From: an uncultured Coriobacteriaceae bacterium
GTDB taxonomy: Bacteria > Actinomycetota > Coriobacteriia > Coriobacteriales > Coriobacteriaceae
Length of the DNA stretch: 49,262 nucleotides
Direction: 5' to 3'
NCBI GenBank assembly: GCA_944319885.1
Contig: CALUFC010000014.1
Coordinates: forward strand, 1-49,262
Below the pieces are notes generated by a model. It worked only from the letters and a program-made list of their open reading frames with translations. It was not told where the DNA came from and searched no databases. This document shows, in pieces, positions 25,247 through 49,262 of the stretch. Position numbers and translations under genes: made by a program. Positions within the stretch are counted from its first letter, which is position 1. Every line of letters begins with the position of its first letter.

Positions 25247-27376
25247 ATGTCAAAGAAACTCCAGATTGCGTTCGCCTCGGCCGAGGCGGCACCCTTCGTG
25301 AAAACCGGTGGTTTGGGCGATGTTGCGGGCGAGCTTCCGCGCGCGCTCAAAAAGGCGGGTGCCGACGTCGTGGTGCTCGTGCCGAAGTACTCCACCATTC
25401 CGGCTGAGTACAAAAATCAGATGGAGCACGTGGGCGAGTTCTACGTGAGCCTGGGATGGCGCAACGAGTACTGCGGCCTCGAGCGCCTCATGGTCGACGG
25501 CGTCCCGTATTACTTCCTCGACAACGAGCATTACTTCGACCGCAGCTATCCGTATGGCTTCTTCGATGACGGCGAGCGCTTCGCGTTCTTCTCCAAGGCC
25601 GTCACCGAGTGTCTTCAGTACCTGCCCGGCGACTTCCAGTGCGACGTCCTGCACTGCAACGACTGGCACACCGCCATGGCGCCCGTGTTCCTGCGCGAGT
25701 TCTATCAGGGGCTGCCGCTCTATGAGCGCGTGAAGACCGTCTTCACCATCCACAACATCGCGTTCCAGGGTCAGTTCTCCGACAAGATGCTCAACGACGT
25801 GCTGGGCCTCGCCCACATCCCCGCTGCCGCCGGCCAGCTGCGCTGCGACGCGAGCTCCATCAACTTCATGCAGGGTGCGCTGCGCTACAGCGACGCCATC
25901 ACCACGGTGAGCCCCACCTACGCCTGCGAGATCAAGTCGTCCGATTTCGGCGAGGGTCTCGACTGGGTGCTGCGCCAGCGCTCCGATGTTCTCTCCGGCA
26001 TCCTGAACGGCTGCGACCCCGCGCTCAACGACCCCGAGACTGACACCAAGATCGCCGCGAACTACGGCGTGGGCAACATGGCCGGCAAGGCCGCCTGCAA
26101 GCGCGCCCTGCAGGAAGAGCTCGGCCTCGAGGTGCGCGACGATCGCCCGCTCATGGTCATGGTCACGCGTCTCACCCGCCAAAAGGGCCTCGACCTGGTG
26201 ACCTATTCGCTTGACCGCATCCTCTCCGGCGGCGTGCAGGTTGCCGTTCTGGGCACCGGCGACCGCGCCTACGAGGATGCCATGCATTACTTCGAGAACA
26301 AGTATCGCGGCACCATGGCGGCCCGCATCACCTTCGACTCCGCTCTGTCCCGCCGCATGTACGCCGGTGCCGACATGTTCCTCATGCCGTCGCTCTTCGA
26401 GCCCTGCGGCCTCTCGCAGATCATCGCGATGCGCTACGGCACGCTTCCCATCGTGCGCGAGACCGGCGGTCTGCGCGACACCGTGGTTCCCTACAACTAT
26501 GTCACCGGCGAGGGTACCGGCTTCTCGTTCGCCAACTTCAACGGTGATGAGATGGGCGACGCCGTCTTCCGCGGCGCACGGCTGTTCTGGGACGACCACG
26601 AGGCATGGAACAAGCTCGTCGAGCAGGCCATGAAGGCCGATTTCAGCTGGACGCGCTCCGCAGGCGAGTACATCGACCTTTACCTGCGCCTCCATCCCGA
26701 CACCGAGGTCCAGCCCGAGCCGGAGCCCGCTCCCGAGCCGAAGGCCGAGCCCGAGGTGAAGCCCGAAGCCAAGACCGAGGCCAAGCCCGAACCGAAGGCT
26801 GAACCCGTTGCCAAGGCAGAGCCCGAGGTGAAGCCCGAGCCGAAGCCGGAGCCCAAGCCCGAGCCGAAGCCCGCTGAGAAGCCGACGGAGGCACCGAAGG
26901 CTGCTGCAAAGCCCGCAGCCAAGAAGGCTCCTGCCAAGAAGGCTGCGACCACGAAGACTGTCGCCGCCAAGGCGCCTTCTGCGAAAACCGCTGCCGCGAA
27001 GGCTGCGACTACCAAGAGCGCTGCCGCCAAGACCACCGCGGCAAAGCCGGCTGCAACCAAGACGACTGCGAAGACCACGGCGAAGCCGGCGACCGCTAAG
27101 GCGGCCGCGCCTAAGGCAACCGCGCCTAAGGCTGCGGCAACGAAGACCACCGCGACCAAGACCGCGGCAAAGAAGCCTGCAGCAAAGACCGCGACCGCCG
27201 CGAAGCCGGCGGCAAAGACCACTGCCAAGACCACGGCAAAGGCTGCTGCCACCACAACGGCGACGACCACGGCTGCCAAGGCAAAAACAGCCGCTAAGCC
27301 TGCCGCCAAGGCCGCTCCGGCAAAGCCTGCCACCAAGGCAACGCGCAAGCCGTCTTCGCGCAAGAGCAACGCCTAA
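25247..27376 (+). CDS. glgA: Glycogen synthase (ADP-glucose) with ~220-residue charged, histone-like tail
   Basis: Elongates alpha-1,4 glucan using ADP-glucose. The GT5 core covers about residues 1-485: SAEAAPFVKTGGLGDVAGEL (the KTGGL ADP-glucose site), LHCNDWHTAMAPVF, FTIHNIAFQG, TRLTRQKGLD, and SLFEPCGLSQIIAMRYGT, followed by ETGGLRDTV. A normal GlgA ends here at ~480 residues. This protein continues (26707-27373) with a Pro-Glu-Lys repeat segment (PEPKPEPKPEPKP) and then a long Lys/Ala/Thr segment (PAAKKAPAKKA style). I chose the ATG at 25247 because AGGGAG lies 6-8 bases upstream; the ATG at 25241 is too close. It follows a 13-bp hairpin and ends at a strong terminator. Confidence 0.95.
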   Translation: MSKKLQIAFASAEAAPFVKTGGLGDVAGELPRALKKAGADVVVLVPKYSTIPAEYKNQMEHVGEFYVSLGWRNEYCGLERLMVDGVPYYFLDNEHYFDRSYPYGFFDDGERFAFFSKAVTECLQYLPGDFQCDVLHCNDWHTAMAPVFLREFYQGLPLYERVKTVFTIHNIAFQGQFSDKMLNDVLGLAHIPAAAGQLRCDASSINFMQGALRYSDAITTVSPTYACEIKSSDFGEGLDWVLRQRSDVLSGILNGCDPALNDPETDTKIAANYGVGNMAGKAACKRALQEELGLEVRDDRPLMVMVTRLTRQKGLDLVTYSLDRILSGGVQVAVLGTGDRAYEDAMHYFENKYRGTMAARITFDSALSRRMYAGADMFLMPSLFEPCGLSQIIAMRYGTLPIVRETGGLRDTVVPYNYVTGEGTGFSFANFNGDEMGDAVFRGARLFWDDHEAWNKLVEQAMKADFSWTRSAGEYIDLYLRLHPDTEVQPEPEPAPEPKAEPEVKPEAKTEAKPEPKAEPVAKAEPEVKPEPKPEPKPEPKPAEKPTEAPKAAAKPAAKKAPAKKAATTKTVAAKAPSAKTAAAKAATTKSAAAKTTAAKPAATKTTAKTTAKPATAKAAAPKATAPKAAATKTTATKTAAKKPAAKTATAAKPAAKTTAKTTAKAAATTTATTTAAKAKTAAKPAAKAAPAKPATKATRKPSSRKSNA

Positions 27377-46760: not shown

Positions 46761-47456
46761 ATGAGTAACCGGCCGCGCATCCTGCTTGTAGAAGACGATC
46801 CCGCCATCGTCGAGGCGTTGAGCGAGCTCCTCGCCAGCGAGGGCTATGCTGTCGAGACCGTCTCTACGCAGCGTGCGGCCATTGCCGCCGTGGGAGATGC
46901 CACGGCCCATGCGCCCTACTCGCTCGTGCTGCTCGACGTAACCCTTGCCGAGGGCAACGGGCTCGCCGTCTGCAGCGCCATCAAGCAAACCGCGCCCGCC
47001 TTGCCGGTGATCTTCCTCACCGCGTCCGACGACGAGTTCACCTGCGTAACCGGTTTCGAGCTAGGCGCTGACGACTACATCGCCAAGCCCTTCCGCCCAC
47101 GCGAACTCATGGCCCGCATCGCCGCGGTCATCCGCCGCGCGCAGCCTGCAACGCGCACCATCTCGTTCGGCCCGCTCACCATCGATCCCGATCGCGCCCA
47201 TGTGGCACGCGACGGTCGCGAGATCGTTCTTTCGGCACTTGAATATCGCCTGCTCATGCTCTTTGCCACCAACCAGGGCAAGCTCGTCACGCGCGAGCAG
47301 ATCCGCGACGCGCTTTGGGATGACGCCGGCACCTACATCGAGGAGAACACACTCTCGGTTTACATCAAGCGCCTGCGAGACAAGATCGAAGACGATCCAG
47401 CCCGCCCCGCGCTCATCACCACCGTGCGCGGCCTGGGCTACAAGGCGCTTGGATAG
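46761..47456 (+). CDS. OmpR-family response regulator
   Basis: DNA-binding transcription factor of 231 residues. The receiver domain (about 1-122) has ILLVEDDPAIVEAL (acidic pocket), VLLDVTLAEGNG with the phospho-acceptor Asp, FLTAS and DYIAKPFRPREL with the conserved Lys. The C-terminal winged helix (about 130-231) has LSALEYRLLMLFATNQGKLVTREQI and YIKRLRDKIEDD, ending in TTVRGLGYKAL. It lies between the L,D-transpeptidase and its histidine kinase with gaps of 9 and 4 bases. Targets probably include the palindrome region before the downstream ABC gene, which is inference. Confidence 0.95.
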   Translation: MSNRPRILLVEDDPAIVEALSELLASEGYAVETVSTQRAAIAAVGDATAHAPYSLVLLDVTLAEGNGLAVCSAIKQTAPALPVIFLTASDDEFTCVTGFELGADDYIAKPFRPRELMARIAAVIRRAQPATRTISFGPLTIDPDRAHVARDGREIVLSALEYRLLMLFATNQGKLVTREQIRDALWDDAGTYIEENTLSVYIKRLRDKIEDDPARPALITTVRGLGYKALG

Positions 47457-47460
47457 CACC

Positions 47461-48567
47461 ATGTTGCTGAGAAACCGTCCTCTCGCGCGCACCGTGTGCG
47501 CCTGGCTCATCATCGCCGCCGCGCTTACGGCCCTCGCTGCTGCGTTGTTTTCGCCGCGCGTGGCGCTTGTTGTTGGCGGCGCGGCGCTGCTTGGCGGCAT
47601 CCCCTTCCTCGTCCATACCTACCGGCGCTACCGCGACCTTGCCCGCCTGGCCGAGCGCCTCGACGCCGTGCTCCACGGCGAGCGCGAGCTGGCGTTCGAG
47701 CGCATGAACGAAGGCGAGCTCGCCATCCTTGCCAGCGAGCTCGACAAGATGGTGCTGCGCCTCACCCTCACGGCCGATGACCTCGCCCGCGAGCGCCAGC
47801 AGCTTGCCGACGCACTCGCCGACATCTCGCATCAGCTCAAGACGCCGCTCACCGCGCTGTCGCTCACTACCGAGCTCGTGCGCAAGGACCTCGTACGGCG
47901 GAGCGACTGCGCGCCCGAGGTGGAACGCTTGCGGCGCATCGAACAGATCGAGGTGCACGTGCAGGAGCTCGTGGCTCAGTTGCTGCGCCTTGCCCGTCTT
48001 GATGCCGGTGTCCTTGCCTTTGCCCATGCGCCGGTTGAGGTGAGCGAGCTCGTTGATCGAGCGGCGCGTCCGCACGCCATCGCATATGATCTCGCCGATG
48101 TCGCGCTAGCCACTCATATCGACGATGCCTGCAGCTTCATCGGCGATATCGCTTGGACGGCCGAGGCACTCGGCAACATCCTCAAGAACTGCCTTGAGGC
48201 GACGCCCGCGGGCGGCACGGTCACCGTGAGCGCGCACGAGGATCTCGTCGCCTGCCGCATCCGCATCACCGACACCGGTCCTGGTATCGCCGATACCGAT
48301 CTGCCCCATATCTTCGAGCGCTTCTATCGCGGCACGCGCACCGGCAACGGCGAGGATGCCGCTGCGTCGCAGGACGCCGCCTGCGAACCTACCGGCACAG
48401 CCTCCAGCCCAGTCAATCCCTCGGGCATCGGCATCGGCCTTTCGCTCGCCCGCGCCCTCATTTCCGCGCAGGGCGGCACCCTCACCGCCGGCAACGCCCG
48501 CGACGCGGCAGGCAACGTCACGGGCGCATGCTTCGACATCACCTTCTTCAAAGACGTTGCCGTCTAA
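47461..48567 (+). CDS. Sensor histidine kinase, short-loop (intramembrane-sensing-like)
   Basis: Membrane kinase of 368 residues. Two TM helices (about 9-27 and 30-47) are joined by only a few residues, so there is almost no extracytoplasmic sensor. This layout is typical of kinases that sense through a partner ABC transporter. A HAMP-like stretch follows. The H-box is DISHQLKTPLTAL, the N-box NILKNCLEATP, the G1 box DTGPGIADTDLPHIFERFYRG, and the G2 box GIGIGLSLARALI. Between the F-box and G2 there is an insertion of about 25 residues rich in Ala, Ser and Pro, which is odd for the ATP lid. It starts 4 bases after the response regulator. Confidence 0.93.
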   Translation: MLLRNRPLARTVCAWLIIAAALTALAAALFSPRVALVVGGAALLGGIPFLVHTYRRYRDLARLAERLDAVLHGERELAFERMNEGELAILASELDKMVLRLTLTADDLARERQQLADALADISHQLKTPLTALSLTTELVRKDLVRRSDCAPEVERLRRIEQIEVHVQELVAQLLRLARLDAGVLAFAHAPVEVSELVDRAARPHAIAYDLADVALATHIDDACSFIGDIAWTAEALGNILKNCLEATPAGGTVTVSAHEDLVACRIRITDTGPGIADTDLPHIFERFYRGTRTGNGEDAAASQDAACEPTGTASSPVNPSGIGIGLSLARALISAQGGTLTAGNARDAAGNVTGACFDITFFKDVAV

Positions 48568-48894
48568 TCGCCACCTCCCCTCTCCAACCACCACTACGCG
48601 ATTTATCACGCATTGGGCGCCAGCTGACTCACGAGTACGCGATTATTCGCGTAGTAGGTTCCACCCGTCCGCGAGTACGCGATTATTCGCGTAGTGGCAC
48701 CGCACCGCCACGCGCGTACGCGATATGGCGCGTATTCGCGCACGGGGGGGTTAGCGCTGCTCGGGGGCAAGGGCACGGGCGCACAGCAACGGCAAACGCG
48801 CCCGTGACAGATGTGTCACACAGCGGTCATCTGGCTGCAAGGTGGCAGGTCCAGTATCGTAGATGACATATCCCTCGTGCGAGAAGGGCCATCC
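48568..48894. repeat. Intergenic array of four 18-bp palindromes, then a promoter region
   Basis: TACGCGATTATTCGCGTA occurs exactly at 48636-48653 and 48676-48693, with degenerate copies at 48595-48612 and 48717-48734. The starts are 41, 40 and 41 bases apart. Each is a perfect or near-perfect stem (TACGCGA/TCGCGTA) around four bases. Spacer sequences are unrelated. A separate perfect palindrome, GTGACA-gatg-TGTCAC, lies at 48804-48819. A weak -10 (TATCGT, 48855-48860) precedes the ABC gene. The array may be operators, transcript-end stems or a genome-wide repeat. Confidence 0.75.
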
Positions 48895-49262
48895 ATGAAC
48901 ATCCTCACGGTCGAGCATCTCACCAAAGTCTACGGGTCGGGCGACACCGCCGTCACCGCGCTCAACGACGTTTCATTCACCGTTGAAGCGGGCGAGTTCA
49001 TCGCCATCATCGGTAGCTCGGGTTCGGGCAAGTCGACGCTGCTGCACCTCATCGGCGGCGTGGATCGCCCCACCTCGGGCACCGTAAAACTCCAGGGACA
49101 GAACATCTTCGACCGCTCCGACGAACAGCTGGCGGTGTTTCGTCGGCGCGAGGTGGGCCTGGTCTACCAGTTCTACAACCTCATCCCCGTGCTCGACGTG
49201 GTGGAGAACATGACGCTGCCGGTGCGCATGGATGGCCGCGCCGTTAACGAGCGGCGCCTTGC
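48895..49262 (+). CDS. ABC transporter ATP-binding protein, LolD/MacB-type, 5' part
   Basis: ATPase of an export or lipid-extrusion ABC system, cut by the window end after ~122 residues. Walker A is GSSGSGKSTLLHLIGGVD, preceded by AVTALNDVSFTVEAGEFIAI and followed by RPTSGTVKLQGQNIF. The Q-loop region RREVGLVYQFYNLIPVLDVVENMTLP is typical of the MacB/BceA/LolD group, whose permease (FtsX-like) usually follows. GAAGGG precedes the ATG. With the two-component genes just upstream it forms the usual layout of antimicrobial-peptide sensing and detoxification modules; the function is inferred from this context. Confidence 0.93.
   Translation, partial: MNILTVEHLTKVYGSGDTAVTALNDVSFTVEAGEFIAIIGSSGSGKSTLLHLIGGVDRPTSGTVKLQGQNIFDRSDEQLAVFRRREVGLVYQFYNLIPVLDVVENMTLPVRMDGRAVNERRL

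Follow-up and report, generated by a model that had tools for sequence, protein, structure and literature searches.

Cooperative operator arrays of dimeric regulators carry dyad sites that are phased by integral helical turns. Regular clusters of palindromes are also characteristic of the REP/BIME elements associated with RAYT transposases; these elements are short, extragenic and species-specific, they undergo fast turnover and they are present at more than 100 copies per genome (PMC2817692). REP elements are in turn known targets of insertion sequences (IS), e.g. ISPsy8, ISPa11 and ISPpu9, copies of which lie at or beside copies of the palindrome (PMC1525189). The array described here has likenesses to each of these systems, and among the papers covered by a literature search none dealt with such repeats in Coriobacteriia.

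The window analysed is a stretch of 49,262 nucleotides from an uncultured Coriobacteriaceae bacterium (genome G000), in which four 18-bp palindromes, with start-to-start distances of 41, 40 and 41 bp, occupy the gap between a histidine kinase gene and an ABC transporter ATPase gene. The features of the region are as follows.

46761 to 47456, plus strand: OmpR-type response regulator (PF00072, PF00486)
47461 to 48567, plus strand: histidine kinase (PF00512, PF02518), the stop codon ending at 48567
48588 to 48741, no strand: whole array, inside about 190 bp that are extra relative to the gap of the sister species
48595 to 48612, no strand: palindrome unit 1, degenerate, TACGCGATTTATCACGCA, two mismatches to TACGCGA-N4-TCGCGTA
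48636 to 48653, no strand: palindrome unit 2, TACGCGATTATTCGCGTA, exact match to the core
48676 to 48693, no strand: palindrome unit 3, TACGCGATTATTCGCGTA, identical to unit 2
48717 to 48734, no strand: palindrome unit 4, degenerate, TACGCGATATGGCGCGTA, one mismatch
48804 to 48831, plus strand: conserved block upstream of the ABC gene, GTGACAGATGTGTCAC-ACAGC-GGTCATC, candidate response-regulator site
48837 to 48873, plus strand: core-promoter-like block, GCAAGG ... CAGTATCGTAGATGACATATC, conserved across the gaps compared
48895 to 49260, plus strand: ABC transporter ATPase gene, running past the contig end

The array is well outside chance expectation. At up to three mismatches the only window matches to the 18-mer were units 2 and 3; as both strands of each were matched, the total was four, where shuffles averaged 0.04 and none reached four. 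No pair of similar palindromes 40-41 bp apart arose in 60 order-1 Markov windows, and under the same rule the window itself contains a chain of three. The degenerate unit 1 scores 33.7 bits with a covariance model of which it is itself a training member, and the core of unit 4 is the reverse complement of that of a copy in a sister species (G003:C12:74234). The spacers bear no relation to one another. Pattern scan, shuffles and Markov windows thus bear out the four phased palindromes and their coordinates as given by the first-pass annotation, and the gene order that it described, a kinase followed by an ABC transporter gene, is also correct. A CRISPR array, judged on the repeats alone, was rejected, as the units differ in core and flanks, number no more than four and belong to a family with many dispersed loci. 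Elsewhere in the window, positions 26712-27270 hold degenerate tandem repeats of 12-36 bp (consensus such as AGCCCGAGCCGA) and other short repeats, which are probably a low-complexity Lys/Pro/Ala-rich region of a protein.

The explanation that we consider probable is that the array is one member of a low-copy, lineage-specific, REP-like family of extragenic tandem palindromes that acts as a landing pad for IS, and is not an operator of the neighbouring two-component system. Genome-wide pattern and covariance-model searches, the model being built from the very copies that it recovers best, found five copies at two loci in the window genome (the array and C4:3116) and at least 13 copies at seven places in its closest relative, G003, in which the response regulator is 99.6% and the kinase 94% identical. 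The copies in G003 start as follows.

C11: three copies, 93214, 93255 and 93295
C12: three copies, 74152, 74193 and 74234
C2: two copies, 166954 and 166994
C13: two copies, 28052 and 28092
Single copies: C16:131, C16:82725 and C4:64511

At up to two mismatches none of 63 other genomes in the host family had a match. Several further matches were set aside. The one at G003:C2:166907 corresponds to the terminator hairpin of htpG, which has a counterpart in G000, and weak covariance-model matches in other members of the genus (E values of 0.0003-1), mostly lacking partners at 40 bp, were judged to be due to chance. The exact 18-mer occurred once each in genome contigs of four unrelated organisms, and viral contigs gave the 18-mer, exact or nearly so, as single matches that formed no arrays, the two read in detail lying inside a coding frame of an apparent RNA phage; blastn of the gap against phages gave zero matches.

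Wherever gene context was read (neighbouring genes being named from translations read by eye), all copies proved to be extragenic, and arrays usually follow a stop codon and precede the promoter region of the next gene. Comparison of the two sister species revealed unequal copy numbers at all four shared gaps checked: four copies in G000 versus none in G003 between the kinase and ABC genes, one versus three between dihydropyrimidinase and rplE, none versus three between ftsZ and yfiH, and none versus two on the 3' side of htpG, where a terminator-like hairpin is present in both species and is followed by palindromes in G003 only. The case shows that what passes for a tidy "operator array" in a single genome can, after orthologous gaps are examined side by side, turn out to be an extragenic repeat of mobile-like character. 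What is constant is the phase. Within the five arrays that hold more than one copy, successive copies are spaced at 41, 40 and 41; 41 and 40; 41 and 41; 40; and 40 bp (9/9 at 40-41 bp) and spacers are unrelated across arrays, so that it is the distance and not the spacer sequence that is kept. Tandem duplication would not be expected to yield unrelated spacers with the phase held at several loci; the pattern suggests instead that a fixed helical distance is either selected for or imposed when copies are placed. The first-pass annotation had taken the regular spacing to suggest binding on one face of the DNA; the phasing is real and recurs with unrelated spacers at four other loci in G003, and on the evidence of sequence a protein binding one face is still plausible.

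The family has in common with REP/BIME elements that each copy is a short imperfect palindrome in extragenic DNA. It differs in having about 5-13 copies (five in G000, at least 13 in G003) and not more than 100, in spacers that are unrelated yet fixed at 40-41 bp, and in lacking a RAYT beside the palindromes, none being detected in the window genome. Thus the array behaves like a REP but is not filed as one, because two defining RAYT-associated features, copy number and a linked rayt gene, fail. It had been noted at first that hundreds of copies at gene ends would make the 18-mer a REP-like repeat unrelated to the operon; the genome-wide count supports this in kind but not in number, there being only a handful of copies. 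A Y1 transposase or RAYT as mobiliser was dropped from consideration, as Y1_Tnp had no match in G000 and a search extending 1.5 kb from the G003 Y1 gene showed no family palindrome. A longer Y1_Tnp-type gene (matches of about 45 bits) occurs in G001, G002 and G004-G007, and was detected neither in G000 nor, in this longer form, in G003.

An association with IS was observed in G003, where an element that appears IS3-like from the orfA-like translation read by eye has three visible ends. At C16:1-127 a family palindrome starts 3 bp beyond the IS, and at C16:82764 and the terminus of C4 one starts 39 bp and 30 bp ahead of it, respectively, so that 3/3 ends have a copy within 40 bp, whilst the single IS seen in G000 has no palindrome in its flanks; the tests of IS adjacency and of arrays were made by eye on few events. 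Here the insertion point varies (about 3, 30 and 39 bp) and copies are few, in which the family departs from the REP-targeting IS; the variable insertion point resembles the looser "type 2" association (PMC1525189).

According to the preferred explanation, the family would be defined by the core TACGCGA-N4-TCGCGTA with looser flanks, CSAN/NTSG, and would be gained and lost in intergenic gaps, its members holding a phase of 40-41 bp, or four turns. The array would work as a REP/BIME-type element and as a landing pad for IS, and the phase may be kept because a dimeric protein, either a host protein or a transposase, occupies palindrome after palindrome along the same face of the DNA. Against this explanation, the copies are far fewer than those of classical REPs, no transposase is linked to the palindromes in either of the genomes searched, G000 and G003, and a fast-evolving small regulon of some regulator could give an equal pattern.

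An important consideration in weighing regulatory explanations is what is conserved in orthologous gaps. All 60 genomes searched proved to contain an ortholog or paralog of the response regulator, and about 30 of these loci were extended for comparison of the kinase-to-ABC gap. From kinase stop to ABC start codon there are 144 bases in G003 compared with 334 in the window, and the G003 gap contains no palindromes. The same is true of all 16 comparable orthologous gaps, none of which has a sequence under four mismatches to TACGCGA-N4-TCGCGTA. What is kept in almost all the gaps compared is a block, GTGAC-N6-GTCAC-N5-GGTCA, directly upstream of the ABC gene, with the consensus gTgAC.gA..tGTCAc.c...gGTCA over 19 gaps (18 relatives and the window). 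In the window this block (48804-48831) separates the array from the ABC start and, because it is conserved across gaps, it seems a likelier candidate than the array for the site of the response regulator. The initial suggestion that the array controls the adjacent transporter is thus not supported, in view both of its absence from every comparable gap, including that of G003, and of the separate block and the occurrence of palindromes at unrelated genes. Other inverted repeats were encountered in these gaps. L054, L055 and L060 have unrelated long perfect inverted repeats with arms of 50, 43 and 31 bp, and another unrelated one follows the kinase stop codon at L050. The gap inverted repeats of G034 and G015 differ by one pair that is changed on both sides (C..G to T..A), and in each genome the sequence is found at this gap only.

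The strongest of the alternatives, although unlikely, is that the palindromes are operators bound cooperatively on one face by a dimeric transcription factor resembling TetR, LacI or Xre, with the ABC gene belonging to its small regulon. Perfect dyads with A/T-rich centres, the constant phase of 40-41 bp at integral helical turns and flanks that resemble half-sites, with pairing inside a unit not required, would all suit such a factor. In contrast to expectation for operators, position is not conserved in orthologs, the genes beside other arrays (rplE, ftsZ/yfiH, htpG and tRNA-Glu) have no common theme, and arrays lie mostly after a stop codon, upstream of the promoter region of the next gene.

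Somewhat less probable again is an RNA-level element, with a row of hairpins in the kinase 3' UTR that would stabilise or terminate the transcript. On both strands the array has a modest advantage in folding over shuffles (z -3.2 and -2.8), other species carry unrelated long hairpins in the same gap and, in a comparison of 15 copies in which the inner core is nearly invariant, the flanks are variable and 88.5% of cells pair, the outer stem pairs covary somewhat (a score attained in 1/500 shuffles). However, the best fold pairs across units and does not form four hairpins, flanking pairs are broken in several units, including units 2 and 3, and there is no such hairpin in the sister species or in most orthologs. 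A search for T-tract terminators (a G+C-rich hairpin followed by a T run) gave no sites in 48400-48960. The constant phase somewhat favours a role at the level of DNA over a hairpin. The units are near-symmetric, and asymmetry of the loop hints at mixed orientation in G003:C12 only. The sole Rfam match, a sub-threshold one to a miRNA, was taken as chance. That the operon's response regulator binds the array itself and thereby controls the ABC gene has in its favour the position between kinase and ABC genes. This reading is very improbable and is contradicted by the comparative data, in line with the first suggestion that a protein other than an OmpR-type regulator may bind, given that the array is not conserved even alongside a 99.6% identical regulator, that the conserved block at 48804-48831 is separate and that the same palindromes occur at unrelated genes.

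The dispersed families of related species provide independent replicates for the question of phasing. Three congeners (G001, G002 and G007) have an unrelated family, GTGCA-N4-GCAC, which occurs at many loci phased at exactly 20 bp, with 0-1 matches in controls, and which is absent from G000 and G003. Its arrays consist of plus- and then minus-orientation blocks, producing large inverted repeats, and examples are as follows.

G002:C4:46920-47064
G002:C14:131962-132145
G007:C12:27798-28002

In G002 a related IS adjoins these arrays at three of eight visible ends. It is possible, and is put forward tentatively as a generalisation that may well fail, that each species of the genus carries its own fast-replaced extragenic palindrome arrays whose units stand an integral number of turns apart (40-41 bp in the present family and exactly 20 bp in that of the three congeners), with no adjacent RAYT and serving as landing pads for related IS. 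In the same scheme a protein complex that senses the phase, possibly the enzyme that mobilises the palindromes, would set or hold each new palindrome at a constant distance from those already present. Related IS in other species are also preceded by recurring motifs (IS flanks L146, L151, L153, L148 and L147), namely CCCGTGTGCGG..GCCACTTTT in G005, GTATACGCAAA..TTTGCGTATAC in G006 and repeats of GAATCGGAC in G004, which are possibly further species-specific repeat families. Downstream of a gene in G001 (L141, C31 near 4690) there are two GTCGAGTACTCGA-type palindromes close together, and these could represent either an operator or a further family of arrays.
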